Source: Promethearchaeota archaeon | Lineage (GTDB): Archaea; Asgardarchaeota; Lokiarchaeia; Sigyniarchaeales; Promethearchaeaceae | Assembly: GCA_004524545.1 (NCBI GenBank) | Contig: SDNX01000009.1 | Location: 1 to 43,591, forward strand | Direction: 5' to 3' | Length of the DNA stretch: 43,591 nucleotides | Part shown: positions 2 through 28,277 of the stretch, in pieces | How the letters are laid out: every line of letters starts with the position of its first letter | Position numbering within the stretch: the stretch's first letter is position 1 | Translations under genes and position numbers: made by a program | Notes under the pieces: model-generated | Databases searched by the model: none | Told to the model about the DNA's origin: nothing | What the model saw: only the letters and a program-made list of their open reading frames with translations

Positions 2-1018
2 ATCCCCGCTGCAATTACCAAAAGATGTTATTTCCAAGGAGAATTCACGGCTGATAGTAAGATTGTTTTAGACGACAGGGTATATAATGAGATCATCCAA
101 ATCCCATTTGATAAACAACGGAAGCAAACTGGATATGAATTAGCCAAGAATGATTACCTTAAGGCTGTTCTCAATGTATTCATCGAGAAAGGATTATTGA
201 AAAACAAGAATCCTGAGTTAGGATTTAGAGGTAGTTTGAGAAACGACGTCCCTCAAAAATCTGGTTTATCAAGTTCTGCAGCCTTATTAGTGGCATTTGC
301 AAAATTGTTAGATGAGATGTTCCAATTGAATTTGGACGAAATTGAAATTGGAACCATTGCTTATCAAGCAGAACATGATCAATTGGGAATTCCATGTGGT
401 CAGATGGACCAATTAGCAGCATCAGTTGGCAATTTATTTCACATGAAATGCCTTGAGCCACCTATAATAAAAAAGATCGACATATCTTTACCAGGGTTAG
501 TAGTGGGAGATACATTAATCCCAAAATCGACAAATAACGTGCATTCAGTACGAGTTAAAGAAATAACGGATGCCATTAATTTCTTAAAAACACAAATAGA
601 TTTTAACATCAATACAACCTCATTTGAAGAAGTGGAGGGGTTTTTGAAGACTAAGAATAAGATATGGCTAAAAAGAGTAAGAGCTACTCTCAATAACAGG
701 GATATTACCCAACAAGCATATAATGAATTACAGAAATCAAATTTAGATTTAGAATATCTGGGTGAGTTGTTAAATGACCATCAAAAATACCTTCGAGATG
801 ATTATGAAGTATCAGTGAAAAAAATTGATGATATGCTATCAGCTGGAATACAAGCAGGTGCTTTGGGGGGTAAACTCACAGGAGCAGGAATGGGAGGTTG
901 CGTCATTATGTTAGCACCTGAAAAACAAAAAGAGGTTGCAACAGCTTTGACAAAAGCTGGGGGAAAAGGATACGTGGTGGATGTTGATAAAGGTGCGTCA
1001 GTAGTATCTTCCTTTTAA
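2..1018 (+). CDS. GHMP kinase (mevalonate kinase/galactokinase-like), 5' truncated
   Basis: The reading frame is open from the left edge, so the true N-terminus, including the first GHMP motif, lies outside the window. GHMP kinases transfer the ATP gamma-phosphate to a small-molecule alcohol such as mevalonate or a sugar. Two family motifs are visible. The glycine/serine-rich ATP-binding loop PQKSGLSSSAAL is encoded around 250-290. The C-terminal glycine motif KLTGAGMGGC is encoded near 870-905 and is closer to mevalonate kinase than to galactokinase. A segment reading GIPCGQMDQLAAS (near 388-425) resembles the galactokinase substrate-side motif instead, so the substrate is not settled. The stop codon overlaps the convergent gene's stop by four bases. 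Family membership is secure; the exact enzyme is not. Confidence 0.85.
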   Translation: MPAAITKRCYFQGEFTADSKIVLDDRVYNEIIQIPFDKQRKQTGYELAKNDYLKAVLNVFIEKGLLKNKNPELGFRGSLRNDVPQKSGLSSSAALLVAFAKLLDEMFQLNLDEIEIGTIAYQAEHDQLGIPCGQMDQLAASVGNLFHMKCLEPPIIKKIDISLPGLVVGDTLIPKSTNNVHSVRVKEITDAINFLKTQIDFNINTTSFEEVEGFLKTKNKIWLKRVRATLNNRDITQQAYNELQKSNLDLEYLGELLNDHQKYLRDDYEVSVKKIDDMLSAGIQAGALGGKLTGAGMGGCVIMLAPEKQKEVATALTKAGGKGYVVDVDKGASVVSSF

Positions 1019-1527
1019 ACTCCTAAATCATCCAATATTACATCTAAAGCGATATTAGAAATAATATCTTTGAATATTACTTTTCCAATCGGAGTTATAA
1101 GCAAATAGGTCTCTTTTTGCAAAGTATGTTCTTGTAGGTAACCCTTTTCTTGGAGAAACGATATTTCTTGCCACTGGGATGTGAAAATTTCTTTCGCTTC
1201 AGGTAGACTTATATCTCGAGAAAATTCTTTTTGAAAACTAAAAATTAACCCCAATATTCCATACATTTGAGGTGTCAAATTTTTATCCATCCCACTGCTT
1301 GCAAGTAGATAATAGGCTTCATCCATAAAGGAAGTTCGTATCAATTCATAACCAATCTCTTCAAATCTAGAATAAACTTCACCAATAATTTCCTGAAATA
1401 AACCCTCATCATTCTCAACAAGAATGAGGAGATCTTTTTCTTTAATTGTTTTTTCTTGAGATTCTAATAAAAGCCTACAAATTCGTTTTATTTTAGATTC
1501 TTGATTTTTATTTGCGTGTTCTGTCAC
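1015..1527 (-). CDS. Tandem winged-helix protein, MAGE/Nse3-like (KITE-type) candidate
   Basis: This is the last gene of the eight-gene minus-strand operon; its GTG start lies 14 bases after the preceding stop. The 170-residue protein has no enzyme motif. By eye it follows the MAGE/Nse3 layout. A first winged helix (about residues 12-70) reads IKRICRLLLESQEKTIKEKD, then a GLFQEIIGEVYSRFEEIGYEL stretch split by FEEI, then a YYLL strand. A second half opens with MYGILGLIFSF, like the 'LLMIILSLIF' helix of MAGE domains, and ends with FLQEKGYLQE and a wing. KITE proteins (ScpB, MukE, Nse1, Nse3) bind kleisin and SMC proteins, and the gene directly upstream encodes an SMC-like C-lobe. A generic archaeal winged-helix regulator remains possible. 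The family call is inference. Confidence 0.5.
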   Translation of the reverse strand: MTEHANKNQESKIKRICRLLLESQEKTIKEKDLLILVENDEGLFQEIIGEVYSRFEEIGYELIRTSFMDEAYYLLASSGMDKNLTPQMYGILGLIFSFQKEFSRDISLPEAKEIFTSQWQEISFLQEKGYLQEHTLQKETYLLITPIGKVIFKDIISNIALDVILDDLGV

Positions 1528-1541
1528 TTTTATAACCTATT

Positions 1542-3149
1542 TTATTTTGAGGTAAGGGTGGTGATAATTATGTCTTTTTGCGTAGTTTCCTCTAAAATGG
1601 GTTTGGAGAGGATAACCACGATTCTATGTTCTGGTTCTTTTGCAAGAAGTCCATTTTTAAGAAAAATACTGGTTTTTTCTATCAAATTTTTGGTCCGTTT
1701 TATCTTAAAATCTGAGTCTAGAAAAACATGCGTCTTAATTCCTGCACTTTTATTCAATACGTACTCAAATGAGCACATTATGAAGAATTTCTCCTCTGGT
1801 AGTAATTTCTCAAACATGATGGATTTTTTACTTTTAAGCAGATGAAATTGAATTCCATACTGAGGGATTGATTTCTCTGATTGTTCGACAAGTGGGAGTT
1901 TGTTAAACAAAATTTTTAAGCCAATTTGCTTAAAAGCTGAATTTAAAGAGCTTTGGATTGATTCTATAATCATTTGAAGTTGATGAAGGGATGCTTCAGA
2001 TAATAATTCTGCTTGCGAGGTCACGATATCAAGTTTCTTCTTAGAAAGATTCCACGACTTGAGAAATTGAGATTTATATGCTTCCGGAGTTGATTCAGAT
2101 GTAGAAATGTACTTAGAAAGTTGAATTTCATTAGATTTTAATTCGGCTTCAATGATCGATGAGAATCTTACGTTTGGAGGAGAAACACCTAAACCAATAG
2201 GTGCATTCTCTTTTGTTTGCGATTTTATTAGATTTTTTCTCTCATCGCGATATTTCTTCAACTGAGAGCTAATTTCCAGATAGGATTTTTGGATTTCAAT
2301 AAACTTTGGGCTCGTTTGAGCATATAATTGTTTTATTTCTTTAAGTTTTAGTTTTAAATTTTTTATTTTGGTTTTATCATGAATGATATCTTCCGAGATA
2401 CCAGCAACATCTTTCTTATACTGCGAAATAGATTTGTTTACGGATTCTAATTTAGCAAAAATACGTTTGTAGTCTTCGCTATCAGATAGTTTTGATTCCG
2501 GTATTTGGGATGCCAATTCTTCTAATTTTTCGGTGTAAAGATCACTTTTTGGTTTTTCAGCATCAATTTGGCGTTTGAGTTTGTTAATTAGGGTTGTTTT
2601 TGAGATATAGGTCTTATTTAGTAGTTTGATTTTATTATCTAAGACATTAAGAGTTTTTTTAAACGAAGTCTCCGTATCTTTCAAGAATTCAAATTGGGGT
2701 TCAATAATTTGTTTTTTTTTTTCTAAGGCAGTAATTTCATTATCCAGTCTCTGAATTCGCTTTATTCCCACATTTGATTTCGATAGAGATTCTAGATAGT
2801 GTGCCCATTGTAGTTCTTGTTTTAAAGTGGTATGTTCGTTGAATAAATTTAGAAATTCAAAGAATTCTTCTAATTCACGAAATTGGTTCAACGCAATGGG
2901 TAAATCTTTCAAATAATCTTCAGTTATAGCAATCGTTTCTGCAATTGTATTGAGTGATTTCACTATTGATGCATTAAAAATTCCATGATTTTCCATGTTG
3001 GTGACGAAATTTTGCATCGTTTTACCGATGATCAGTTGACTGTCAAGAAGATTTTTGTCTTTCCAATCAATCCATTCTATTGAACGGGGAAGATCGGTAA
3101 TATCCTTCTCAGAACTGCCTTGAATGATATATAAAGGGGCAGATGGCAA
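1542..3149 (-). CDS. Coiled-coil protein with a degenerate SMC/Rad50-type ATPase C-lobe
   Basis: The 535-residue protein begins with about 110 helical residues, followed by long heptad-like coiled coil broken near residues 205-215 and 310-330. The last 150 residues resemble the C-terminal lobe of SMC ATPases. A stretch ending YGIQFHLL precedes LLPEEK (about 449-454), where SMC proteins carry LSGGEK. HVFLDSD follows after the SMC-like spacing (about 474-480) in place of the Walker B FYVLDEVD. RIVVILSKP (about 509-517) sits where the H-loop strand is expected. The signature glycines and the Walker B glutamate are missing, and no Walker A is visible at the N-terminus, so ATPase activity is unlikely. 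The only standard start is TTG at 3149, while AAAGGAG lies about 22 bases upstream with an in-frame ATA six bases after it. The operon pairs it with a KITE-like protein. Homology is inferred from motif spacing. Confidence 0.6.
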   Translation of the reverse strand: MPSAPLYIIQGSSEKDITDLPRSIEWIDWKDKNLLDSQLIIGKTMQNFVTNMENHGIFNASIVKSLNTIAETIAITEDYLKDLPIALNQFRELEEFFEFLNLFNEHTTLKQELQWAHYLESLSKSNVGIKRIQRLDNEITALEKKKQIIEPQFEFLKDTETSFKKTLNVLDNKIKLLNKTYISKTTLINKLKRQIDAEKPKSDLYTEKLEELASQIPESKLSDSEDYKRIFAKLESVNKSISQYKKDVAGISEDIIHDKTKIKNLKLKLKEIKQLYAQTSPKFIEIQKSYLEISSQLKKYRDERKNLIKSQTKENAPIGLGVSPPNVRFSSIIEAELKSNEIQLSKYISTSESTPEAYKSQFLKSWNLSKKKLDIVTSQAELLSEASLHQLQMIIESIQSSLNSAFKQIGLKILFNKLPLVEQSEKSIPQYGIQFHLLKSKKSIMFEKLLPEEKFFIMCSFEYVLNKSAGIKTHVFLDSDFKIKRTKNLIEKTSIFLKNGLLAKEPEHRIVVILSKPILEETTQKDIIITTLTSK

Positions 3150-3163
3150 ATCGGATAGTTTTA

Positions 3164-3952
3164 TTATGACCCACTCCTTTTTCTTTTCTTTCCACGTTTC
3201 CTATTAGAATATTCCCCTGTTCTTTTCATTCTTGCTATTTCTCGTTCATCTGCTTCTAAATAAGCCCTATAACCATCAAAATTAGATTTTTCTTCAATTT
3301 CCTTGGATCGAGAGGGAGTAAGATTAGAAGTCGCTTTCTCGTCAGGATATTTCGATTTTAAAAATTCTTCAATAGGTACCCTTGTTTTTTTGTACGCTTC
3401 AATATATTCATTCTTATCGGTATCTGATATATTTACGTGGTTTTTCAAGACAGCCCGAAGTTCTTCTGTAATTCTTTTCTCAATATGAGAATTTTGAAAT
3501 TTACGCAATATACGTGCAGATTCTACAAGTCCAGGATCCGATTGCAATATGTCAAGTAACTCCATCCAAGATTGTTCAGATATTGATTTTAACGGAGCTA
3601 CTCCGAGGAGTGGTTTTGCTTGATTAGATTTTAGAATATTAATACCGGTTGTTTTTAATCCATTTGTTAAATTCTCCCGTGAATCAAGAAGCTTTTTCAT
3701 TACTTCCTGGATTTTTAATCCACCGGTCAAATTGTAGATTATTCTCCAAAAATCGATTAAATTATCGCATGAATGAGTAATTTCGTCCATTTTTTTGTTT
3801 GTGTTTTGAAAATTAGGCCTAATTTCAGAAAAATTAGAATTATCCGAGATCTGGTGATTTTTTTGAGCGATTTTTTCCTGAATAAGTAAAAGTTCCAGCT
3901 TACTCTTGTTCAGAAATTCCAAAATTTCGCGGTAGGATTGAGGTACTGTCAT
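3164..3952 (-). CDS. Helical protein with strongly basic C-terminal tail, unknown function
   Basis: I do not recognise this 262-residue protein. The first 65 residues look like an amphipathic or coiled-coil helix (LNKSKLELLLIQEKIAQK). A helical middle follows, containing a LLGVAPL turn near residue 115. A charged region leads into a final 16 residues dominated by Lys and Arg (NRKRGKKRKRSGS), a likely nucleic-acid contact. It lies 11 bases after the AAA+ ATPase gene and 14 bases before the SMC-like gene, so co-translation is likely. A kleisin-like bridging role between the SMC-like and KITE-like neighbours would fit the gene order, but no kleisin motif is evident. That role is speculation. Confidence 0.75.
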   Translation of the reverse strand: MTVPQSYREILEFLNKSKLELLLIQEKIAQKNHQISDNSNFSEIRPNFQNTNKKMDEITHSCDNLIDFWRIIYNLTGGLKIQEVMKKLLDSRENLTNGLKTTGINILKSNQAKPLLGVAPLKSISEQSWMELLDILQSDPGLVESARILRKFQNSHIEKRITEELRAVLKNHVNISDTDKNEYIEAYKKTRVPIEEFLKSKYPDEKATSNLTPSRSKEIEEKSNFDGYRAYLEADEREIARMKRTGEYSNRKRGKKRKRSGS

Positions 3953-3963
3953 TGTCGGAAACT

Positions 3964-5013
3964 CTATATATCACGAGGTTTCTTTTTAGTTGATGAATTT
4001 GAGATTTTCTTCTCTGTAATTTCCCCCTCTGTCCTAGAGAGAACTGATTGTTGCTCTACGTGTGTACGAGTTCCTCCAACGAATTCCATAGCGTTGATTA
4101 GGTCTTGGTATTCTAACACTCCCCTTTGAATTGCTTTCAGAAGAGAAACCCGTATAGCTCGTTCAATATCTGCCCCAGTATATCCAACTGTAATACTTAA
4201 TAGTCCAGTCTCTTTTTTTAGATTGTTTTCATAATCTAGCAAGGTCAATTTCCGAGATTTTTTCTTCATTTCTTCAAAATTTAGCAACAGTTCTTTTTCT
4301 TCATTTAGCAATCGATGAAAAATAGAACTCTCTACTTCTATGGACGCTTTTTCAAGCCTTCTAAGGAATCGTTCTAAAATTTCTTTTCGAATTGATAAAT
4401 GTGGAAACCCAAACCAAATATGATATGTAAATCTCCTCCAGACTGCGCTATCTAATTGATTTTGATGATTAGTTGCACCAAAAATTGCTAAAGGGATTCC
4501 CTCGTAATCAATTCTATCAATTATCTGAAGAAAAGAGATAACCCCTCTTTTGATTTCTCCAACTTCATGAACATTTGAACGTTCTGAAGCAATAGCATCC
4601 AATTCATCAAAGAAAAGCAAGAAAACTTTATTCTCTTTTGCGATTTCAGCTGCAAGCTCAATTACATTCCTCATATTTTTTAGCGTATCACCCAAGAGGG
4701 GGGAAACTAATTTGTCTGCATCCACTATGCACATAGGGACCTTATATTTTTTTGCGAGAGCCCGGGTTAATGAAGTTTTTCCGGTTCCTGGAGGCCCATA
4801 CAGAAGTACAGTGATCGATGGTGTAATCCTTACTTGTTGGAGCTTCTGTGCATATTCTTGATATTTATCTAAGGATTTAAAGAAATCTTCTAGAATTTCT
4901 TTGTTATTATCAATCCCGATTAAATCGTCTTCTTTATCACGGATATCCTTCGGGAAGTATACAGTTCCATATTTTTGCATCCGTTTTCGAATTTCTGCTT
5001 CTGTAAAGACCAT
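3964..5013 (-). CDS. Classical AAA+ ATPase
   Basis: This 349-residue protein is a single-module AAA+ ATPase that would couple ATP hydrolysis to remodelling of a partner. An N-terminal stretch of about 30 residues leads into LIGIDNNKEIL. Walker A is GPPGTGKT (73-80) and Walker B is FLLFFDELD (131-139). Sensor 1 is the Asn of GATN (about 182), and the paired arginines of VWRRF (193-194) sit at the arginine-finger position. The C-terminal lid contains VGYTGADIERAIR, as in Cdc48, 26S and katanin-type ATPases. All catalytic residues are present. There is no substrate-recruiting domain such as an OB fold, zinc site or transmembrane segment, so specificity probably comes from its operon partners. 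It is the only obvious energy-consuming enzyme of the eight-gene operon. Confidence 0.92.
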   Translation of the reverse strand: MVFTEAEIRKRMQKYGTVYFPKDIRDKEDDLIGIDNNKEILEDFFKSLDKYQEYAQKLQQVRITPSITVLLYGPPGTGKTSLTRALAKKYKVPMCIVDADKLVSPLLGDTLKNMRNVIELAAEIAKENKVFLLFFDELDAIASERSNVHEVGEIKRGVISFLQIIDRIDYEGIPLAIFGATNHQNQLDSAVWRRFTYHIWFGFPHLSIRKEILERFLRRLEKASIEVESSIFHRLLNEEKELLLNFEEMKKKSRKLTLLDYENNLKKETGLLSITVGYTGADIERAIRVSLLKAIQRGVLEYQDLINAMEFVGGTRTHVEQQSVLSRTEGEITEKKISNSSTKKKPRDI

Positions 5014-5023
5014 GATATACTAC

Positions 5024-6268
5024 CTATTCTTCAATAATTGATGTTATATATTTTGATATTTCTACTATGAGTTTTTTCATAGATTGTATCTGGGATCCAA
5101 TTGAGCTGAAGATTTCTTTCCTGTATTGGACTGAATCCCTAATTTTTGTTCTATCTATTCCTAGATATTTGTCAAAACAGATTAGTTTCATCATATATGG
5201 AAGGATTTTTTCTTCCGTTTTCAGGTCTGTAAATATTGTATAGAAAATATTTTCTTCAGATACAAACGTCAGTAAGGAAGCATTATATATTAGTAATGAA
5301 AAGATGGAACTAATCCAATTTATTAGTTCTTTGGAGATAAATCCTCGTTTGTATGAGAGTTTTGCTAAATATATTAACACAAGAGTCTCATTACTTAATT
5401 GAGGTTTAATACGTTCCTTAGAATCGGATATTTTTTCTCGCGAGAAGTAATTATGTGGCTCTCCTACTCGGATAAGATTCATTGTTGGACCAATGAAAAT
5501 ATCATGGATAAGTTGTAATTCCATTCTTTTCAATATTTGCTGGAGATTGATTAGCTCATTATTTGCAACTGAGTCGATAAAGGGTAAAAAAACTTCATCC
5601 TTTAAAACAACAGGTATTTCTATTGTTTCGTCCTTGGGGGATTCCAAGAAATTTGGGTCTAAATTAAATAGGGAAGTTATTTCATTAATAATCTTAAATA
5701 AAAGGGGACTGAGTGCAGGAGACTCGAAACTTTCATCTTTTTCTCGATAAGATGATGTTGGCATAAGAAGATGCCTTTGAGTCTCATAATATTCCACAGA
5801 TTTCTCAATAAGGTGATCATATACCTCTTGTAATGAATTTCGTCTAGGAAAAATTTGTTCTTGGATGTATTGGACAATTAAAAACAGTGGTGTAGATTCG
5901 TAATTGAATTGTTCTGGTGAAGTTATTGTTGATAAAAAATCTAAGAATTCAATGGAATCTTCAAAATCGTCAATAACTATGTCTCGAATCTCTTCTAAAT
6001 CAGTAGTACTTCTTAAATCCTCCACACAATCCCAAATTCGAGTAAATATGTCCCGCCGATACATCGCGCTAAACTCGGAGATTGCTTTTACTTTTCCCAC
6101 AGATCGCTTTTCTTCTTCTGTTAAATACTCCGTAATCTTTGTTTTATCTTCTAAATCTTCCGGAAGAATATCTTGCATAAATCTATTGGATTGTTCAAAC
6201 AAGGGACGCATATTTTGTATATAATTTTGATAGTAGGGATAAATTTCCATCCAAGATTCACGAACCAT
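5024..6268 (-). CDS. Large helical protein of the AAA operon, unknown function
   Basis: This 414-residue protein is not recognised. It is predominantly helical and acidic, with no signal peptide, convincing membrane span or metal motif. Its first residues (MEIYPYYQNYIQNMRPLFEQ) are aromatic-rich. The middle carries helical hydrophobic blocks such as FLPFIDSVANNELINLQQIL. The C-terminus is a long amphipathic helix ending IVEISKYITSIIEE. Its ATG shares one base with the TAA of the upstream gene (TAATG), a strong sign of coupled translation, and it ends 10 bases before the AAA+ gene. A structural or adaptor role in the ATPase complex is inferred from the operon only. Confidence 0.78.
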   Translation of the reverse strand: MVRESWMEIYPYYQNYIQNMRPLFEQSNRFMQDILPEDLEDKTKITEYLTEEEKRSVGKVKAISEFSAMYRRDIFTRIWDCVEDLRSTTDLEEIRDIVIDDFEDSIEFLDFLSTITSPEQFNYESTPLFLIVQYIQEQIFPRRNSLQEVYDHLIEKSVEYYETQRHLLMPTSSYREKDESFESPALSPLLFKIINEITSLFNLDPNFLESPKDETIEIPVVLKDEVFLPFIDSVANNELINLQQILKRMELQLIHDIFIGPTMNLIRVGEPHNYFSREKISDSKERIKPQLSNETLVLIYLAKLSYKRGFISKELINWISSIFSLLIYNASLLTFVSEENIFYTIFTDLKTEEKILPYMMKLICFDKYLGIDRTKIRDSVQYRKEIFSSIGSQIQSMKKLIVEISKYITSIIEE

Positions 6269-7389
6269 TATTCATTCCCTCCCTCAGCGCCTAATATGAT
6301 TTCGCTGAATATATTAGATATTTCGACAAAAATGGGAATTTCTACTCTGCACATGTTACCTAAAACCCATTTATTTACATCTTTTAGAAGGAATTGGGCT
6401 TGTAAATGTAAATTTATTTTCTTATCTGTGAGAAGAATTTTGTCTAACCAATTAATTCCTCCTACTCGATAGGCAACGATCTGAACTAAAGGAGTCATTA
6501 ACTCTCCCAATATGCCTTTGGTTAACCAAGATTTAGGAATAATCGACATGGTTTGGGGATTGAAATGCTCATCGCGGTTTATCGGATTAGTTTCATCAAC
6601 CTCTAATTTTGGCATAAAACTCAGTAACAAAATTAAGGAAAAGATCGCGCATATCCCGTTGATTGCATATTTATCTAAGTTTTTTCGATTGATTGATTGA
6701 GTAGCGAGAAAATAGCTGATAAAAACCATTTTATCGAAATCTTCGGTGATTACTTTTTCCCCATTATCTTGTACTTCAATATATTTACCCTCCAAAATTT
6801 GGGTAATTTCCTCAGGAAATGAATAGAATCGATAATTTTTCGGTTTACCATCCCGTACATCTTGTTCTACATGAAGATTTTCTACTTCTAATCCCAAAAA
6901 GTCTGCAATTTTATCCAATCGTTCTTGAACATATTTCCTTGGTTTATTTGGATCACCAAACATAGCATAAAATTGATGATCGACAATTTTAAAATCTCTA
7001 CGTTTCTTGAATGCTTCCACCAAATTATCTAAAATTCTTCGGTTTGTTCCACCGAATAATGTTTTACCTTGAGAGCTAATGAATCCATCAATTAATTCAC
7101 TTATGATCGAATCTTGTTCTAGGGTACGTGCATTAAGAATTTGATTGAACGCAATTGTGTGATTGGTAGTATTTGGAAATAACTTGGATTGAATGGAATT
7201 ATTGATCATTGTTATCAGTAACTCCCCATTATTTCTAGGGAGAAAATTTCTCAATTGAGTGAATTTTTCAACCAATCGCTCTTTTGCACCGGGAATGTTC
7301 TCCACATCCCGTTCAGCAAGAAATTCAATTGATTGAGTCAATCCATTCTGAAATTTCTCTATTAGCTCACTCCATACAGTTATCGCCAT
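6268..7389 (-). CDS. Conserved-looking protein of the AAA operon, unknown function
   Basis: This 373-residue protein has no recognised domain. The first 120 residues are helical. A middle segment around residues 135-200 alternates short helices with strands (KPRKYVQERLDKIADFLGLE, then YRFYSFPEEITQILEGKYIEV) and could be a winged helix. A hydrophobic stretch GICAIFSLILLLSFMPKL near residues 245-262 is the only candidate membrane helix, but it may simply be a buried helix. The gene begins eight bases after the zinc-ribbon gene ends and shares one base with the next gene's start. It is therefore firmly within the operon, but its role is unknown. Confidence 0.75.
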   Translation of the reverse strand: MAITVWSELIEKFQNGLTQSIEFLAERDVENIPGAKERLVEKFTQLRNFLPRNNGELLITMINNSIQSKLFPNTTNHTIAFNQILNARTLEQDSIISELIDGFISSQGKTLFGGTNRRILDNLVEAFKKRRDFKIVDHQFYAMFGDPNKPRKYVQERLDKIADFLGLEVENLHVEQDVRDGKPKNYRFYSFPEEITQILEGKYIEVQDNGEKVITEDFDKMVFISYFLATQSINRKNLDKYAINGICAIFSLILLLSFMPKLEVDETNPINRDEHFNPQTMSIIPKSWLTKGILGELMTPLVQIVAYRVGGINWLDKILLTDKKINLHLQAQFLLKDVNKWVLGNMCRVEIPIFVEISNIFSEIILGAEGGNE

Positions 7390-7397
7390 CTTTTATT

Positions 7398-8333
7398 TTA
7401 CTCCCAAATTGACTCTATTTTCTTTAATGCTTCGATTAAGGGCTTAATTTTGCTTTTTTCATAAATATTAGGAGATTTTACGCCTTTTCGAGATTCCCAT
7501 GCAAGTGATTTATTCGCATGTTGGTCCACGATTAACTCACTAGTTATATACGGTTGCAAATCCCGAGTCCACCAATAAAATCGTAACCATTTTCTATCAG
7601 AGTTGGATTCTTTGTAAATTACCGATATTGCTTTCCAATCTCCAACATACATTTGAGTTGTGATTCCTACCACGGGTAAATAAAATGCGATAGGAAGGTT
7701 TTTTACAAATCTCAGTGGTAAATTCTCAGAGGGATAATTAAAAAGAGGAATTCCTTTCACGATGACAAAGAGTTCTCCACATACTTGATTTTCGCATTCA
7801 TAGAATTTTTGTTGCTTTTTCAAGGTTTTTCCACACACTGGACATTTCCTATCAGTAAATTTGAAATTTAAAAACTCTTGATCGTCAAGATTTGGATCAG
7901 CGGGTACATCCCCTGCTCCAATCCAATTGAATTCTTCATCAAAATTTTTATCTATGTTTTCTAGTGCTGAGATTGTGTTTCTGAGAACGCTTTTTTCTCG
8001 TATTTTTATCATACCCCAATGAATTCGAGCGACTTCTTTAAACCAAGAAAGCCGAACGTACTTACTTTTTGGGAAGTCTGGGCTATGGCAGATAAGTACT
8101 GCAATCATCATTTTGGGATCTTGGTGGGCGATTACACCTTCGTCACATATCTCGTATTTCTCATTGAGTTTAGTATTTCTCATAAACCAAGCCCCAGATG
8201 TAACAGATAATTCAGCCGGTTTCTCCTCTTTTTTTTTCTTCTCTTGCACTATGGTCTTACATTTTGGACACTCATAGATACTCCCCGGGACGAGTGTACG
8301 GAGTTCAGTCTCACAATTTGGACATTTGGTCAG
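7398..8333 (-). CDS. Protein with two zinc ribbons; probable CTG start
   Basis: The first conventional start is a GTG at 8249, but the frame stays open upstream to a CTG at 8333-8331. The 28 added codons encode a clear zinc ribbon, with CPNC at residues 4-7 and CPKC at 22-25. The CTG overlaps the TGA of the upstream gene (CTGA), and a GAGG sits 10 bases before it, a typical coupled arrangement. No ATG, GTG or TTG occurs in this extension. A second zinc ribbon in the middle of the 311-residue protein (CPVC, then CENQVC) precedes a beta-rich, aromatic C-terminal half (WLRFYWWTRDL). The product is probably a nucleic-acid or protein-binding adaptor of the AAA operon. The function is not recognised. 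Confidence 0.72.
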   Translation of the reverse strand: MTKCPNCETELRTLVPGSIYECPKCKTIVQEKKKKEEKPAELSVTSGAWFMRNTKLNEKYEICDEGVIAHQDPKMMIAVLICHSPDFPKSKYVRLSWFKEVARIHWGMIKIREKSVLRNTISALENIDKNFDEEFNWIGAGDVPADPNLDDQEFLNFKFTDRKCPVCGKTLKKQQKFYECENQVCGELFVIVKGIPLFNYPSENLPLRFVKNLPIAFYLPVVGITTQMYVGDWKAISVIYKESNSDRKWLRFYWWTRDLQPYITSELIVDQHANKSLAWESRKGVKSPNIYEKSKIKPLIEALKKIESIWE

Positions 8334-9442
8334 TCTAAATCATCCTCTTCAAATTCAATAACTTCTCGTTCTAAATCAAGATTCAGTAATTTTAGCTCTT
8401 TCTCGCTATAGGTATGAAGGAAATCATTTGATTTTTTCAATTTTTCTCGTATTTCCAGTAGGGAATCACGGATGAAGAAGGATGTTTCTTCTTCATTTTC
8501 AGTCAGTTGCTCGATAAAAGTGAAATATGACATTTTTTGTTTTCTCCCTGAGTAAAAACTCCGAATATCTTCAATTTGTTTATGTATATCGAAAAAACTC
8601 GATTTCATTTCCAATAGTTGAGAGATCGTTGTCTTCCATTGGGTGTAAATTTCAGTTTTTTCAGGAGGGTTAAATTTCATAGGTAAATTCCGTGATTTAG
8701 ATACTAGATATTCAAAAATATCATTGATTTTTGGATCTTCTGCAGCTTTTTTTATTTTTTGCATGTATTTTGCATTAAGCATATCAGAATGATAAATTTT
8801 CAAATAATTATCGATAGAATTTTCCAGTTCTTCCGTTTTTAACTCAATATCTACTACGAACCGCTCCAACCGCAGAGATAAGAATGGATTTCCTAAAAAA
8901 AATAAAATTTCATATAATTCGTCATCTAAAGCAAAATCCTCATCAAACTTGTGGACAAGTGCATGAGTGATATTACTACTCTCACATGGAATTCCTCGTA
9001 ATTTTTTCAAGGAGTCATTGATTTTTTTTAAAGTTACTATTGGGAAGTATGGTTTGATTATTCTTAGTAATCCTTCAGAGGAGAACATGACTTTTTCTCC
9101 CTCAATATATACTTCATCAGAAAGGAGTTTTACACTAGTATCATCTGGAGTTTGTTCAAAAACAGCATAACTGGAGATATTTTTGACTAAATTGTATACG
9201 AATAATTCTTCTATAACATCTTCAGGTAGGGATTGTTTTAGATCTTTTGCCGTCGTTGAACTTGCTCCAATTCGATCCAATCGTTCAAATCCATCAACAA
9301 TGGCATCATCCTCGAGATTTTGAAAGACATGTACCCTTACCAAGTACATATGAAGCAGAATGTAACGGATTATCGGGTCATCAAAAACTGATTCAAGCAT
9401 TGCTCGATCAACATCAATATCCAAAGTGCTATGTTCTTCCAT
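8330..9442 (-). CDS. First gene of the AAA operon: acidic helical/coiled-coil protein
   Basis: This 370-residue protein opens the eight-gene operon. It is acidic and almost wholly helical. Residues 1-100 contain hydrophobic helices (DDPIIRYILLHMYLVRVHVF). A 240-residue middle follows, and the C-terminal third is probably coiled coil with a very acidic end (EREVIEFEEDDLD). No catalytic or metal motif is visible. GGAAAAA lies about 10 bases before the ATG. The 240-base gap to the divergent elf1 gene must hold the operon promoter, though I could not pick one TATA box with confidence. Its stop codon overlaps the next gene's CTG start. Confidence 0.78.
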   Translation of the reverse strand: MEEHSTLDIDVDRAMLESVFDDPIIRYILLHMYLVRVHVFQNLEDDAIVDGFERLDRIGASSTTAKDLKQSLPEDVIEELFVYNLVKNISSYAVFEQTPDDTSVKLLSDEVYIEGEKVMFSSEGLLRIIKPYFPIVTLKKINDSLKKLRGIPCESSNITHALVHKFDEDFALDDELYEILFFLGNPFLSLRLERFVVDIELKTEELENSIDNYLKIYHSDMLNAKYMQKIKKAAEDPKINDIFEYLVSKSRNLPMKFNPPEKTEIYTQWKTTISQLLEMKSSFFDIHKQIEDIRSFYSGRKQKMSYFTFIEQLTENEEETSFFIRDSLLEIREKLKKSNDFLHTYSEKELKLLNLDLEREVIEFEEDDLD

Positions 9443-9682: not shown

Positions 9683-10297
9683 ATGGGAAGACGAAAAAGG
9701 AAGAAAGTAGTGTATAAGCCGGTTAGGCGCCTCCCAAAGGTGTTTTCTTGCCCTAATTGCGGACATAAGACAATAAAGACACGTATTGAGAAAGATAAAG
9801 CAAAAGCAATGGTAATTTGCGGTTTCTGCGGATTAGAACAACAAGTAGAGGCATCCCAAATAACCGAACCGGTCGATGTATTTGGAGATTTCATTGACAT
9901 CTATTTCAAAGGTCAAGAATATAGCCGATTGCTTAAACGGGCCCAGAGATTAGAAGACAAACAAAACTTCTCAGAGCTTGCCTTGGTATATGAAATTCTT
10001 TCTGATATATGCAAGGATAATTCTAATGAAGCATTAAAGGAATATGAAACACACCACCTTGACGAAGACATGGAAAACGCCCAAAAATGGAAAGCACAGG
10101 CCGATGAATATTTTAGATTGTCCAGAGACATTTACCAAAAATTAGATCTGAAAGAATTAGAAAATGGTCTTGATGACGGTATTTATGAGGATGTTGAAGA
10201 CCAACAATATTCTTCCGATGGCAAAACAGGTAAAAAGCCCAAACGTGGTCGAGATCTTGACGAAATTCTAGATGATAAAGGATTTCTTGAATTATAA
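9683..10297 (+). CDS. elf1: Elf1-family transcription elongation factor with C-terminal extension
   Basis: Elf1 (ELOF1) is a small zinc protein that binds RNA polymerase during elongation in eukaryotes and some archaea. The first 80 residues match it well. A basic start (MGRRKRKK) precedes CPNC (23-26) and CGFC (46-49), which form the zinc ribbon, and the signature TEPVDVFGDFIDIYF follows (about 61-75). Typical Elf1 proteins are about 80-120 residues, whereas this one is 204. The extra 120 residues are charged and helical, with possible TPR-like character and a basic KTGKKPKRGR patch near the end. The gene stands alone, divergent from the AAA operon, with its own TATA box. Confidence 0.88.
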   Translation: MGRRKRKKVVYKPVRRLPKVFSCPNCGHKTIKTRIEKDKAKAMVICGFCGLEQQVEASQITEPVDVFGDFIDIYFKGQEYSRLLKRAQRLEDKQNFSELALVYEILSDICKDNSNEALKEYETHHLDEDMENAQKWKAQADEYFRLSRDIYQKLDLKELENGLDDGIYEDVEDQQYSSDGKTGKKPKRGRDLDEILDDKGFLEL

Positions 10298-17772: not shown

Positions 17773-19710
17773 ATGTCTACATACGATTATGCGAAATTAG
17801 GATTAAAATGTGGAATTGAAATCCACCAACAACTAGCCACAAAAACAAAACTATTCTGTGGATGTGAAAATAAACTCCGTGGTCAAGATCCGTCTGATTA
17901 TACTCTTGAACGGACATTTCGGCCCGTATTGGGTGAGGAGGGCAAATTTGATCCAGCAATGTTAGTGGAATTTGAGAAAAAAAACACAGTTATCTATGAA
18001 GGTTTCACAGATTGTACCTGTACCTATGAGATTGATGAAACTCCACCATTCTTTTGCGATCCAAATGCAATCGATATTGCATTAGAGATCGGTCTTTTAT
18101 TAAACTTGAAACTAGTTGATGAGTTTCATGTATGTAGGAAGAATTATGTGGATGGATCGGTACCTGCAGGATATCAAAGGACAGGCATTATCGGGATAAA
18201 TGGTTCTATTCCAATTTCACCCCAAAAAGATATCGGAATTAATTTATTATGTTTAGAAGAAGACTCTTGTAGAAAATCAAGTGAAGGAAAGAATACGATT
18301 ACATTTAAGTTAGATCGTTTGGGAATTCCACTTGTTGAAGTCACAACCGCTCCTGATATCAACGATCCAGAAGAAGCTAGGTTAGCAGCATTACGGATTG
18401 GAATGCTTCTCAGAAATACAGGAAAAGTCAAGAAAGTATTAGGAGCAATTAGACAAGATCTCAATGTTAGTATTCAGGGAGGAGAACGAATTGAAATTAA
18501 AGGTGTTCAGAAACTAGATTGGATTCCAATTCTCTTAAAAAATGAGGTAACTAGACAGCTGAGCCTACTTAAAATTCGAGATAATATGGTTGAACGAGGT
18601 CTAAAATCTAAGGATTTCCAGGAAAAAGTCTTTGATTTATCTGAAATTTTCCAAAAAACACAATGCAAATTCATCCAAAAAGGAATAAAGAACGGTCTAC
18701 TGGTATGGGGAATGCGTGTTCCATACATGCAAGGATTATGGGGGAGAGAAATTCAAGAAGGTAGGCGTTTTGGGACTGAAGTAGCAAATAAAATGGGTGC
18801 GATTACTGGATTAAAAGGGCTAATCCATAGTGATGAGAAACTTGAAAAATATCAGTTCTCTGAAGTAGAAATCTCCAAAATTCGTAAACAACTGAAGTGT
18901 GGAGAAGAAGATCTGTTTGTTTTAGTTCTTGGTAAGAAATCACGATTAGAACAAGCGTTTGAAATTATTAAAGATCGATTAGTAAAAGCATCAGTTGGTG
19001 TTCCTGAAGAAACAAGAAAAGCATTAGAAGATGGTAATACTGAATTTTTGCGTGAACTCCATGGTGCAAAACGATTATATCCTGACACGGATTCTCGTGA
19101 AATTCCAATTTCACGTGAGAGAATTGAAACCATACGGGCTAAGTTACCGCGATATCCCTGGGAAGCAATGGAGGAATTTGCATCCAAATACAAAATTCCT
19201 AAAGAATCATTAAACCAACTAACTCTAGATGGAAATCTCAAACTGTTGGAAGATATTTTGAATGTATATTCTGGAAAACCAACTGTAGTAGTCAGTACCC
19301 TATTAGAAACGATTAAAACACTTAGAAGAGACGATAAACCCGTAGAAAATCTCACTGATTCTCATTTCATCCAGGTATTTACTCTCTTAGAAAAGAAGAA
19401 AATCGCAAAAGAAGCTATTGAGGATATTTTATCAAATATTTCGGAAAATCCCTCAGTTAAAATAGAAGATATCGTCGAGAACATGAATATCACTACAATG
19501 GATACGAATGAATTGCAGAATATTGTACAGAGAATTATTCCTCAGTTTTCCTCTATGATAAAAGAACGCCAGATGGGGGCAATGGGACCGATTATGGGAG
19601 CAGTTATGACAGAAGTACGGGGTATGATTGATGGAAAACTCGTATCTCAAACAGTAAAGTCTGAAATTATGAAAGAGATCAAAAAGGGAGGAAAGCAAGA
19701 TGGGATCTAA
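17773..19710 (+). CDS. gatE: Glutamyl-tRNA(Gln) amidotransferase subunit E, copy 1
   Basis: GatE, with GatD, converts Glu-tRNA(Gln) to Gln-tRNA(Gln) using ATP and ammonia released by GatD. The 645-residue length is normal. The N-terminal GatB/E catalytic domain opens with GLKCGIEIHQQL and KLFCGC and includes the conserved RPVLGE and DCTCTYEIDETPPF. An AspRS-like insertion lies in the middle, followed by NTEFLRELHGAKRLYPDTDSR. A full GatB/YqeY tail domain occupies the last 130 residues, ending with GAMGPIMGAVMTEVRG; this tail contacts tRNA. The leader appears very short, with the TATA-like CATTTTAAATTAAATT upstream. It overlaps gatD by 11 bases. Confidence 0.96.
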   Translation: MSTYDYAKLGLKCGIEIHQQLATKTKLFCGCENKLRGQDPSDYTLERTFRPVLGEEGKFDPAMLVEFEKKNTVIYEGFTDCTCTYEIDETPPFFCDPNAIDIALEIGLLLNLKLVDEFHVCRKNYVDGSVPAGYQRTGIIGINGSIPISPQKDIGINLLCLEEDSCRKSSEGKNTITFKLDRLGIPLVEVTTAPDINDPEEARLAALRIGMLLRNTGKVKKVLGAIRQDLNVSIQGGERIEIKGVQKLDWIPILLKNEVTRQLSLLKIRDNMVERGLKSKDFQEKVFDLSEIFQKTQCKFIQKGIKNGLLVWGMRVPYMQGLWGREIQEGRRFGTEVANKMGAITGLKGLIHSDEKLEKYQFSEVEISKIRKQLKCGEEDLFVLVLGKKSRLEQAFEIIKDRLVKASVGVPEETRKALEDGNTEFLRELHGAKRLYPDTDSREIPISRERIETIRAKLPRYPWEAMEEFASKYKIPKESLNQLTLDGNLKLLEDILNVYSGKPTVVVSTLLETIKTLRRDDKPVENLTDSHFIQVFTLLEKKKIAKEAIEDILSNISENPSVKIEDIVENMNITTMDTNELQNIVQRIIPQFSSMIKERQMGAMGPIMGAVMTEVRGMIDGKLVSQTVKSEIMKEIKKGGKQDGI

Positions 19711-21070
19711 TCAACCTGAAGGGTATAAGAAAAAATCAAAGAAATTCTTTAAAGATCATAATATTGAAGCATGGGATAAAGTGGAGATTAAGAAAGGAGA
19801 TTCTCTATTTCAAGGAATCATTCTTCCAAGAAATCAATTCGCTGATGATGGATACGTTGAAATTAAGCTAAGTAATGGATACAATATCGGTTTGAAAGTG
19901 GAGGATCTGGAAGAAATCAATGTTATTGGTAAGAATCCCCCTATGATAGTAGAATTTGAAGGTATGAAAATTCCAAAGGATAAATCGAAACCTAACGTAA
20001 CTTTACTCGGAACGGGAGGAACGATAGCTTCTCGTTTAGATTATGTCACTGGTGGTGTTATTCCAGCATTTAAACCTCGTGAATTATATGCAGCTGTCCC
20101 TGAATTGGCTGAGATTTGCAATTTGGATACAAAAATCATATTTAAAATATTCTCTGAAGATATGAAACCGAATAATTGGTTGAAAATTGCTAAAGAAGTT
20201 ACGAAACTCAGTAATTCTGGGATTGATGGCATTGTTGTGACGCATGGAACGGATACACTTGGATATTCTACAGCTGCTGTATCTTTTTTGGTCCAAAATT
20301 TGCATGTTCCTGTAGTTTTTGTGGGTAGTCAGCGTTCTTCAGATCGACCATCATCAGACGCAGCCATAAATTTAATTCATGGAACCAATTTAGCAGCGAA
20401 AGGGGATATAGCAGAAGTTGTTTTGTGTATGTTGGGTAGTTCTTCGCATACTTACGGATTGATTCATAGAGGAACACGTGTACGTAAAATGCATTCTTCC
20501 GTAAGGCATGCTTTTCGAACTATTGGCGATATCCCATTAGGGAAGATCGAGAATGAAAAGATAGTTTGGTTTAAAAAAGACATCCATCACAAATCAGCAG
20601 TAGATCTTGAGCTAGAAACTATATGCTCCAAAAAAATCGAATCCAAATGTGCCTTGGTATATATCCATCCCGGAATGTCCACGGAAATTATTGATTTCTA
20701 TATTGATAAGGGGTATAAAGGAATTGTTCTTGCGGGGACAGGCTTGGGACATGCCCCAAAACATATGTTTAATTCAATCCAAAGAGCAATTTCTGAAGGA
20801 ATAAGTGTAGTTATGGCACTTCAAACCCTTTGGGGATTTACAGGTATGAAAGTATATTCCAATGGTCGAGAGCTCTTGGATTTGGGAGTCATTCCTGCGG
20901 ATATGATTCCTGAAACCGCATTCGCAAAATTATGTTGGGTTTTAGGGAATTATCAAGATGAGAATAAAATTAAACAAGTAATGCAGACGAATATAGCAGG
21001 TGAAATCTTGCCATATGAAGATATTAGAGGTTATCAAATACAACAAGGATTAACAGAAAAAGAATATTAA
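19700..21070 (+). CDS. gatD: Glutamyl-tRNA(Gln) amidotransferase subunit D, copy 1
   Basis: GatD is the asparaginase-like glutaminase that feeds ammonia to GatE. The 456-residue protein has an N-terminal beta domain of about 80 residues, then the asparaginase core. Catalytic elements are GTGGTIAS (Thr108), THGTDTLGY and the lysine of VRKMHSS, plus SQRSSDRPSSDAA. All are intact. It is translated from an ATG inside the end of gatE, so stoichiometric production is likely. A run of eight T residues lies 70 bases after its stop. Confidence 0.96.
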   Translation: MGSNQPEGYKKKSKKFFKDHNIEAWDKVEIKKGDSLFQGIILPRNQFADDGYVEIKLSNGYNIGLKVEDLEEINVIGKNPPMIVEFEGMKIPKDKSKPNVTLLGTGGTIASRLDYVTGGVIPAFKPRELYAAVPELAEICNLDTKIIFKIFSEDMKPNNWLKIAKEVTKLSNSGIDGIVVTHGTDTLGYSTAAVSFLVQNLHVPVVFVGSQRSSDRPSSDAAINLIHGTNLAAKGDIAEVVLCMLGSSSHTYGLIHRGTRVRKMHSSVRHAFRTIGDIPLGKIENEKIVWFKKDIHHKSAVDLELETICSKKIESKCALVYIHPGMSTEIIDFYIDKGYKGIVLAGTGLGHAPKHMFNSIQRAISEGISVVMALQTLWGFTGMKVYSNGRELLDLGVIPADMIPETAFAKLCWVLGNYQDENKIKQVMQTNIAGEILPYEDIRGYQIQQGLTEKEY

Positions 21071-22918: not shown

Positions 22919-22930
22919 ATGTATGAAAAC

Positions 22931-22940
22931 ATTTATAAAT
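22931..22940 (+). promoter_or_regulatory. TATA box, secreted protein copy 1
   Basis: ATTTATAAAT is a perfect palindromic TATA element. The leader contains the hairpin GTCTC-TTT-GAGAC (22962-22974). Both the TATA box and the hairpin recur in copy 2. Confidence 0.6.
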
Positions 22941-22996
22941 TTGTAAGATCCTTACTCATCTGTCTCTTTGAGACAATATACATATTGGTGACAGAA

Positions 22997-23515
22997 ATGA
23001 GAAAAGAATTTTTAGGGAAATATATCGTAATTGGGGTATTAATCTTCTGCATTTCCTTCTCTCAATTCCATATTTTGATTGCTGTAGCAACTCCAGGCGA
23101 TATGCCAACGGATGGGACTGGACGTCCAGTTGATGATCGAGAAATCATAGACGGTTCTGAGTCTAATTGGAATGGTGCAACTTTAACCCTTAACGATGGT
23201 AATCATTGGTATCTTACAGCTGAACGGGTTGGTTGGGGATTAGACAGGATTGTTGTAGAGGTATATTTTGAATCTCCAGCGGGTATTGACAGAATATATC
23301 TTCAAGGTTTTCTTGGAGGAACAAGCATCACCTATTATAAGGTGACAATTTACTACACTGATGGTAGTAGTTATGGTAAATTTACGATATCTGAGGGTTC
23401 ACAATCATTCCAAGTAGATGAGGAAAAAACGGTAGACTATATTGAAATATATAAACAGCTTCTATGGTGCAAAAATTTTGAACTTGATTTTGATTACATA
23501 TATGGAGTTGTATAA
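22997..23515 (+). CDS. Secreted or anchored small beta-rich protein, copy 1
   Basis: The ATG at 22997 follows GGTGACAGAA, and both gene copies are alike from there, so I prefer it to the upstream in-frame starts. The 172-residue protein opens with a basic end and a hydrophobic stretch (KYIVIGVLIFCISFSQFHILIAV), a signal peptide or N-terminal anchor. About 140 extracytoplasmic residues follow, rich in Tyr, Gly and acidic residues and likely beta-strand (IVVEVYFESPAGID, YYKVTIYYTDGSSYG). Two cysteines are present (one in the hydrophobic stretch, one in LLWCKN). No family is recognised. Its paralogue at 27759 has the same length, promoter and leader. The two flank the ABC transporter genes. Confidence 0.8.
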   Translation: MRKEFLGKYIVIGVLIFCISFSQFHILIAVATPGDMPTDGTGRPVDDREIIDGSESNWNGATLTLNDGNHWYLTAERVGWGLDRIVVEVYFESPAGIDRIYLQGFLGGTSITYYKVTIYYTDGSSYGKFTISEGSQSFQVDEEKTVDYIEIYKQLLWCKNFELDFDYIYGVV

Positions 23516-24016: not shown

Positions 24017-24820
24017 CTACTGTCTATCAATCTCTTCTTTAAGTTTGTCTATAGTTTTATAGAGTCGATCTATTTTTAAATCCATCTGTAACTGTGCAGA
24101 TTTTTGAGACTCTAAACTAATTCTTTCAACGCTTTGTTTTATTACTCCATCCTCAATAACAAGGATCTCATCAACATAATCGACAAATAACGGATCGTGT
24201 GATACTATTATGAAAATTTTCGAAGAATTCTTCTTCTGGATTTTTTTTAGTAATTCTGCAATTAAATATTTATTTTCTACATCCAATTGACCAGTAGGTT
24301 CGTCACACAAGAAAATCGAGTTATCTAAAGCAAGTGCTATTGCAACACTCAATCTTTGTTTTTCACCACCAGATAGGGAATCAGGATCGTGATTTACCAA
24401 TTTAGACAAGTTTGTAGTTGTTAGAATATCTTGGAGTTTTTCATCGCTTATTTTGCGATTTCGTGAAGAAATTGCAAATAAAAGGTTTTCTTTTACATTC
24501 AGATAAGATATAAAGACAGGTTCTTGTAATATGTATGATATTTCCGACAATCTATATGATTCAAGTTCTTGAGATGAATAAGTTGTTATCTCTTTTCCGA
24601 ATACCTTTATACTTCCACTAGAAACGGTATCCAATCCTCCAATTAGATTTAACAAAGTTGTTTTACCGCTTCCCGATGGTCCTAAGATTAAATAAATCTT
24701 CCCAGAAGAAAATTTTGAAAATAATCCTCTGAGTGCTGAGGTTTTTACTTCACCAGAATCATAGATTTTAACAATATCTTCACAAATTATCGCATTTTCA
24801 TCATCTTGTTTTTCTGACAT
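24017..24820 (-). CDS. ABC transporter ATP-binding protein (MacB/LolD-type)
   Basis: This 267-residue ATPase would power the FtsX-like permease encoded just upstream. It shows Walker A GPSGSGKT (47-54), a Q-loop in SYILQEPVF, the signature LSGGEKQR, Walker B SIFLCDEPTGQLD and the switch histidine in IIVSHDP. This motif set is typical of the MacB/LolD family, which drives mechanotransmission rather than classical import. The last 35 residues form a short coiled coil (IDRLYKTIDKLKEEIDRQ), which is not usual for the family. It overlaps the permease gene by 20 bases. Confidence 0.95.
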   Translation of the reverse strand: MSEKQDDENAIICEDIVKIYDSGEVKTSALRGLFSKFSSGKIYLILGPSGSGKTTLLNLIGGLDTVSSGSIKVFGKEITTYSSQELESYRLSEISYILQEPVFISYLNVKENLLFAISSRNRKISDEKLQDILTTTNLSKLVNHDPDSLSGGEKQRLSVAIALALDNSIFLCDEPTGQLDVENKYLIAELLKKIQKKNSSKIFIIVSHDPLFVDYVDEILVIEDGVIKQSVERISLESQKSAQLQMDLKIDRLYKTIDKLKEEIDRQ

Positions 24821-27605: not shown

Positions 27606-27684
27606 GAGTACTGCACATTTTTCGATTTTTATTTGGTTTCTAATAAAATCCTTTTTAATCCCTTTGGTATTTATGTGTAGAAAC

Positions 27685-27694
27685 ATTTATAAAT
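27685..27694. promoter_or_regulatory. Palindromic TATA box between divergent genes
   Basis: ATTTATAAAT reads the same on both strands. On the plus strand it precedes secreted protein copy 2, with the same leader hairpin as copy 1 (GTCTC-TTT-GAGAC, 27716-27728). On the minus strand it is correctly placed to serve the FtsX-like permease starting at 27605. Confidence 0.5.
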
Positions 27695-27758
27695 TTGTTA
27701 GATCCTTACTCATCTGTCTCTTTGAGACAATATACATATATATATATTGGTGACAGAA

Positions 27759-28277
27759 ATGAGAAAAAAATTTTTAGGGAAATACATAGTAATAGGGGTG
27801 TTAATATTTTGCATAGGTCTCTCTTCCATGCGTTTTGTATTTGCTGTTCACATTCCTGGCCAAATTCCAACTGATGGAACTGGACACTCAGTTACTCATC
27901 GAGAAATTATAGATGGCTCTGAGTCCAATTGGAATGGTGCTACTTTAGACTATGATGATGAGCAATATTGGTATCTTACAGCTGAACGGGTTGGTGGGGG
28001 ATTAGATAGGATTGTTGTTGAGGTATATTTTGAATCTCCAGCGGGTATTGATGAAATCTATCTTCAAGGTTTTCTTGAGGGAACAAGTATTACCTATTAT
28101 AAGGTGACAATATACTACACTGATGGTAGTAGTTATGGTAAATTTAAGATATATGAGGGCTCTAAATTCTTTGAGGTAGATAACACAAAAACAATAGACC
28201 ATATCGAAATATATAAACAGCTTCTATGGTGCAGAAATTATGAACTTAATTTTGACTATATATATGGAGTTACCTAA
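27759..28277 (+). CDS. Secreted or anchored small beta-rich protein, copy 2
   Basis: This 172-residue protein is a close paralogue of the one at 22997. It has the same basic start and hydrophobic segment (KYIVIGVLIFCIGLSSMRFVFAV), followed by a nearly identical extracytoplasmic domain containing SESNWNGATL and IVVEVYFESPAGID. Most differences lie in the signal peptide and the strands after residue 120. The similarity extends upstream through the leader and TATA box and stops just after the coding region, so the duplicated unit is one gene with its promoter. Copy 2 has eight extra bases of TA repeat in the leader. It is divergent from the permease gene. Confidence 0.8.
   Translation: MRKKFLGKYIVIGVLIFCIGLSSMRFVFAVHIPGQIPTDGTGHSVTHREIIDGSESNWNGATLDYDDEQYWYLTAERVGGGLDRIVVEVYFESPAGIDEIYLQGFLEGTSITYYKVTIYYTDGSSYGKFKIYEGSKFFEVDNTKTIDHIEIYKQLLWCRNYELNFDYIYGVT

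Follow-up and report, generated by a model that had tools for sequence, protein, structure and literature searches.

What kind of machine is encoded by eight closely packed archaeal genes that bring together a complete AAA+ ATPase and a protein resembling an SMC (structural maintenance of chromosomes) ATPase with an inactive head? The window analyzed here, that is the whole stretch of 43,591 nucleotides, corresponds to contig SDNX01000009.1 of the Promethearchaeota archaeon assembly GCA_004524545.1, a genome of 2.5 Mb and 76% completeness whose nearest named relatives are Lokiarchaeota metagenome-assembled genomes. Eight minus-strand open reading frames (ORFs) occupy positions 1015-9442 and are lettered A to H in the order of transcription (Table 1); genomes, loci and families used for comparison carry identifiers beginning with G, L and f, respectively. 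Inspection of the ORFs bears out the packing described in an earlier reading of the letters alone (hereafter the sequence-only reading), with gaps of at most 14 bases or overlaps: 4 bases are shared by A and B (CTGA) and one by C and D (TAATG), whereas the gaps amount to 8 (B-C), 10 (D-E), 11 (E-F) and 14 bases (G-H), the F-G spacing being 0-14 bases depending on the start chosen for G. The explanation that we favor, and which we regard as evenly balanced, is that the operon encodes one DNA-associated multi-subunit machine with its origin in an SMC5/6-type complex, to which the AAA+ protein E and the putative adaptors A, C and D were joined early in the evolution of Asgard archaea, and that this machine serves genome maintenance in the manner of Smc5/6.

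The central evidence comes from gene G. By itself, the protein gives coiled-coil matches only in direct searches, and an NCBIfam SMC match (5e-6; coil only) was first read as coiled-coil noise, until splitting the protein into N-lobe, coil and C-lobe settled its SMC homology. A profile of Asgard SMCs, including those of the variant loci and of f16 described below, matches G with P=1.7e-10 over 222 columns, the second-best family in this comparison being the P-loop region of E (6e-4). Taken separately, the C-lobe piece matches the SMC C-lobe (P=2.1e-6; unrelated controls 0.11 or worse), the coil piece matches the SMC coil (8e-6), and the N-terminal piece has the N-lobe Walker A region as its best target, the match being weak (P=0.01). 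The AlphaFold2 model of G (predicted local distance difference test, pLDDT, 78; predicted template modeling score, pTM, 0.45) retrieves, as best PDB matches in Foldseek, Rad50 (3e-8), JetC (1e-6), an Smc head (4e-6), MukB (5e-6) and Smc6 (3e-5), and also LmuB; a few dynein matches in the same list were attributed to the coil. An SMC-like fold, on which the sequence-only reading had staked its proposal, is thus what the model returns. The predicted layout consists of a short N-lobe strand, an antiparallel coiled coil and a C-lobe, as in an SMC head on its coiled coil, the N-lobe being reduced. In all 16 G sequences (16/16) the Walker A motif is absent (G without GKS/T) and the acidic residues of Walker B are missing, and the SGGE signature is replaced by LTTPEK or similar. 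Since profile and fold both point to SMC proteins and the motifs are lost in all 16 sequences, G is, as judged from alignments and the model, an SMC derivative with a dead ATPase head, which agrees with the inactive SMC C-lobe on a coiled coil recognized earlier. Full-length SMC proteins are also encoded in the same genome, G being additional to them. Separately, a 1488-aa SMC ORF was noticed at G000:C86 14219-18589, its matches being split by a long unmatched middle that is possibly an intein or another insert.

Relatives with an intact SMC indicate where G may come from. An SMC gene lies directly downstream of the AAA gene in two genomes from the same family and in two from f16, another Asgard family. 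At the former two loci, from Candidatus Harpocratesius (L039) and a Prometheoarchaeum bin (L040), the order A'-C'-D'-E', in which the gene preceding C' belongs to the same family as A, is followed by an SMC-type ATPase of 1057-1071 aa. Its motifs are intact: GKNG(S/T)GKS (Walker A), HSSGQKQ (signature) and IDEFDRGLD (Walker B). After the SMC gene come a possible MksE-like protein and an Nse4_C-like kleisin candidate (E=0.0013, below the cut-off); a small H-like protein is found in L039 only. In f16, the SMC gene directly follows the E homologue (L141, L156); in L156 the SMC runs off the contig and a D-like gene stands in front of the AAA-SMC pair. A midpoint-rooted tree of 25 SMCs, built without eukaryotic sequences, places those AAA-linked SMCs of f16 and the variant loci that are complete enough in one clade (99/99), sister to the SMCs of the SMC-kleisin-KITE-RING operons described below (100/100), and both together are split from the other archaeal SMCs (100/99). 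Smc5 and Smc6 are among the best PDB matches of the variant SMC, and an SMC5/6-related archaeal SMC clade is already known (PMC9389158, citing Yoshinaga and Inagaki 2021). The simplest history would be an ancestral A-C-D-E-SMC operon in which the SMC degenerated to G in Lokiarchaeales; the system would accordingly be SMC5/6-related with a dedicated AAA+ partner, its SMC head having died in Lokiarchaeales.

A second link to SMC complexes is provided by gene H. The SMC operons of f12, f16 and f18 comprise an SMC, a protein of ~250-320 aa at the kleisin position, one of ~210-240 aa at the KITE position and a zinc/RING protein of ~150-175 aa. The KITE-position proteins match models of Nse1 (0.002), MksE (0.003) or winged helices, and the proteins at the last position match RING or other zinc-finger models, in both cases below or at the Pfam cut-offs. 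H matches the KITE-position profile with P=1.9e-6 (next family 1.3e-3), and HMMER searches find a match to it at the KITE position in five SMC operons (1e-5 to 7e-4), which supports its homology to these proteins. Of the earlier assignment to the MAGE/Nse3 class of KITE proteins, only the KITE level is supported. Comparison of G and H by hhalign with the variant proteins alone gave too weak a signal; only the larger SMC and KITE sets brought it to significance. In f18 (L159-L163, e.g. L161:5537-17111), genes for ThiF/E1 (1e-35), Prok-JAB (4e-10) and a RING-like zinc protein are found a few kb or less from the SMC-kleisin-KITE-zinc operon; from this context it is possible that SMC5/6-like complexes were linked with ubiquitin before eukaryotes.

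That every relative of G has lost the ATPase motifs would also be expected of a protein-remodeling machine in which G is merely a coiled-coil scaffold, no DNA is involved and the SMC ancestry is historical, and E is indeed a member of the classical AAA clade, that of the protein unfoldases. We consider this distinctly improbable, given that a KITE-like partner is kept beside G, that complete SMCs, accompanied by kleisin-like and KITE-like genes, persist in related operons, and that the Lys/Arg-rich tail of F suggests contact with nucleic acid.

To what extent the eight genes belong together was examined by profile searches within the phylum, with C and B against 228 genomes and, in addition, with E. 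The gene set was found in 8/8 genomes of f1, to which the window belongs, in 56/65 genomes of f4, where G012, G055 and G145 enter these counts from D/E/H or B fragments, and in 0/6 genomes of the order's two remaining families. Among the nine f4 genomes without a match, two have contigs that begin inside the gene for the transcription elongation factor Elf1, exactly at the expected operon start, and the remaining seven have no Elf1 match either; these absences are therefore unreliable and mostly resemble assembly gaps, and nearly all members of f1 and f4 may carry the operon. The full order Elf1'-A-B-C-D-E-F-G-H is present in 35/60 loci (named genomes), so that the gene order on which the sequence-only reading also depended is indeed conserved in relatives, and most of the other 25 loci are cut by contig ends or hold an insertion. 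Recurrence of this gene set is far beyond chance. All eight proteins are kept in other genera, with identities of 52-54% for C and E and ~18-20% for F and G; within the genus, the corresponding values are 84-85% and 39-41%. That the order A-H is held across genera in spite of the divergence of G and F was counted in favor of a single machine.

Several loci carry insertions after E. The one at L038:11355-18787, together with L166, encodes a Rad50-like zinc-hook ATPase, a PAPS reductase, an HhH-GPD glycosylase and a C5 DNA methylase; the one at L101 contains TGT and DUF5591 genes, and further insertions occur at L098 and L104. A second, degenerate Elf1 copy accompanies these cassettes. Replacement of F-G-H by the Rad50-like cassette was considered and rejected, as F-G-H resume beyond the cassette in G010. 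At another locus, L111 (G113:C831), an A-like gene and a single C/D-like gene adjoin an E2-E1 fusion (ThiF 1e-20, UQ_con 3e-5) and a JAB protein.

Gene E was described from the outset as a complete AAA+ ATPase, and its motifs GPPGTGKT, FFDE, ATNH and WRRF are present in all relatives; Walker A and B, sensor 1 and the arginine finger expected of an AAA+ unfoldase or remodeler are all in place. Its best curated matches are to IetA, with 179.3 bits for NCBIfam and 197 bits for PADLOC as compared with 95 bits for CDC48. This affinity, the fast evolution of F and G within the genus, the cassettes after E (DNA modification in G010, TGT/DUF5591 in L101) and the E2-E1 and JAB neighbors in L111, which are related to Cap2/Cap3 modules, make a defense system the main rival: E would be an IetA-like ATPase, G-H would act as a sensor or clamp of the SMC type, comparable to Wadjet and Lamassu, and A-D would recognize or act on invading virus or plasmid DNA. 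We nevertheless judge such a function unlikely. The score of E lies far below the curated IetA cut-off of 510 bits, Pfam, NCBIfam and PADLOC scans found no IetS-type protease in the operon, and no nuclease or toxin domain was recognized in its proteins. Moreover, in two families the operon is syntenic and near universal at one site beside Elf1, a distribution neither patchy nor mobile, and gene C has no relatives among the viral contigs or plasmids searched. The stability of the operon, its chromosomal location and its near-universal presence lead us to prefer a role in genome maintenance. Most relatives of E further share a conserved C-terminal tail, [GK]P[PRL][ED]I (GPPEI or KPREI; positions 3964-3980), which is lost or altered in L038 and in the variant loci with intact SMC and which suggests a docking peptide.

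For A, C, D, F and H, direct sequence searches of Pfam, NCBIfam, PADLOC and PDB returned nothing usable, and A-D and F match no known family as far as these comparisons reach; A, C and D are indeed the large unrecognized helical proteins announced by the sequence-only reading, which had also correctly noted two zinc ribbons in one protein (B; CPxC..CPxC and CPxC..CxxC) and a Lys/Arg-rich tail in another (F). Strong matches to B are confined to the same order. C and D share a domain (pairwise P=4e-7) and, judging from this value, its rank among all family pairs and the matching of both by the C/D-like protein of L111 (L111C), are probably paralogues. The model of C (pLDDT 79, pTM 0.78) is partly confident, and its best local resemblance is to the TFIIE winged helix (7nvs_W, E=0.23, prob 0.99), which is not significant.

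Together with the weak likeness of a B zinc ribbon to L37Ae/RpoM ribbons, and with Elf1 transcribed divergently beside A at nearly every locus, this resemblance could point to a housekeeping chromosome or transcription-coupled complex that is tied to Elf1 and contacts the transcription machinery through the C winged helix and the B zinc ribbons. The structural match of C being non-significant, Elf1 not being seen beside the genes in the f16 contigs examined or in the variant loci, and five f3 genomes of the same order lacking the operon, with Elf1-like matches in both genomes tested, we consider this improbable.

Several observations count against the SMC5/6-derived machine that we favor. No kleisin was found in the window operon, and F, tried as a candidate, matches neither the Asgard kleisin-position proteins nor the Nse4-like protein. 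The match of H to the KITE-position proteins spans ~85 columns only. The model of C has no significant PDB or BFVD match (best E=0.19), so that an adaptor role is a guess, and G is possibly a scaffold without DNA contact. Finally, the affinity to Smc5/Smc6 rests on pairwise PDB matches and the published clade rather than on the tree.

Among known systems, the operon resembles Smc5/6 and the archaeal SMC5/6-related SMCs in G and its intact relatives, which belong to the SMC superfamily, in the KITE-like subunit, in the Nse4-like kleisin candidate of the variant loci and in the RING genes of the sister operons. It differs in that the SMC head of the window is dead and its N-lobe reduced, whereas the variant SMCs retain intact motifs, in that the AAA+ protein and A-D have no counterpart, and in that a single degenerate SMC takes the place of an Smc5-Smc6 heterodimer with Nse1/3/4, Nse-type genes occurring in the operons of other families. 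With Wadjet (JetABCD), MksBEF and MukBEF it shares the logic of an SMC plus a KITE-like protein, JetC and MukB being in the Foldseek list of G; unlike these, it has an SMC without ATPase motifs, an additional AAA+ protein and four unrelated proteins, a kleisin is undetected, and no nuclease family such as the JetD toprim nuclease was found in any of the eight proteins (Pfam, PADLOC). The anti-phage system IetAS (ATPase IetA and protease IetS) is nearest over the AAA domain of E; the protease is absent and the context is one of eight genes with an SMC relative. In Lamassu, LmuB is an SMC-like coiled-coil protein; LmuA effector and LmuC are unrecognized in the operon, which has instead AAA+ and KITE-like proteins. 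As the sequence-only reading had supposed, no paper describing this gene set was found; the SMC-kleisin-KITE context may partly be covered by bioRxiv 2024.01.07.573240, known to us by citation only. In a survey of Asgard defense systems (PMC11291487), the main text makes no mention of IetAS, Wadjet or SMC.

How might such a machine work? G would be a catalytically dead clamp or scaffold keeping its coiled coil, head and KITE-like partner H. The ATPase of G being dead, E is the sole recognizable ATPase of the operon; it may form a ring and dock by its conserved tail onto a partner, perhaps C/D, with A, C and D, and possibly B, as adaptors. E would then spend ATP to load G-H(-F) onto DNA, open it or remove it, or to remodel DNA-bound proteins, most likely as part of Smc5/6-type maintenance directed at aberrant, entangled or foreign DNA.

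Table 1. Position and features of genes A to H and of the flanking Elf1 gene in the window.
Gene	Positions	Strand	Length (aa)	Features
A	8330..9442	-	370	Unrecognized, mostly helical; without usable Pfam/NCBIfam/PADLOC match
B	7398..8333	-	~311	Two zinc ribbons around a conserved domain; putative CTG start
C	6268..7389	-	373	Helical, winged-helix-like part; probable paralogue of D; no global match to solved structures
D	5024..6268	-	414	Helical; probable paralogue of C
E	3964..5013	-	349	Complete AAA+ ATPase; IetA models nearest
F	3164..3952	-	262	Fast-evolving; Lys/Arg-rich tail; slot where a kleisin could sit
G	1542..3167	-	~535-541	Degenerate SMC (profiles and model)
H	1015..1527	-	170	KITE-like protein
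Elf1	9683..10297	+		Transcription elongation factor; divergent neighbor of A; flank, not claimed as subunit

Two of the gene starts are judged from homologues only. B requires a CTG start (8333-8331) overlapping the stop codon of A; its relatives show M-KCPxC at this point, so that the first zinc ribbon of B appears to be real. Upstream of 3149, G has no ATG, GTG or TTG, and as its homologues reach ~3167, an AUA start (ATA, 3162-3167) is possible. Elsewhere in the window, inspection of translations reveals a gatE-gatD-like pair (Glu-tRNA amidotransferase) occurring twice (17773-21070 and 28755-31930), and two very similar small secreted-looking proteins (ESNWNGATL...; 22919-23515 and 27747-28277) flank a MacB-like ABC transporter (24017-27686).

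In every domain of life, SMC complexes are regarded as DNA motors powered by ATP. We tentatively put forward, at somewhat less than even confidence, that the operon represents a new class of SMC-derived machine, originating from an ancestral Asgard SMC5/6-type ring with an AAA+ protein, in which the ATPase of the SMC was discarded and a separate AAA+ motor acts via C/D adaptors. If true, a dead SMC head with a constant AAA+ partner across an Asgard order would demonstrate that evolution can retain the ring and exchange its motor. As the intact relatives group with Asgard SMC5/6-like proteins, the system also bears on the origin of eukaryotic Smc5/6, in a way that can be tested by complex prediction and reconstitution.

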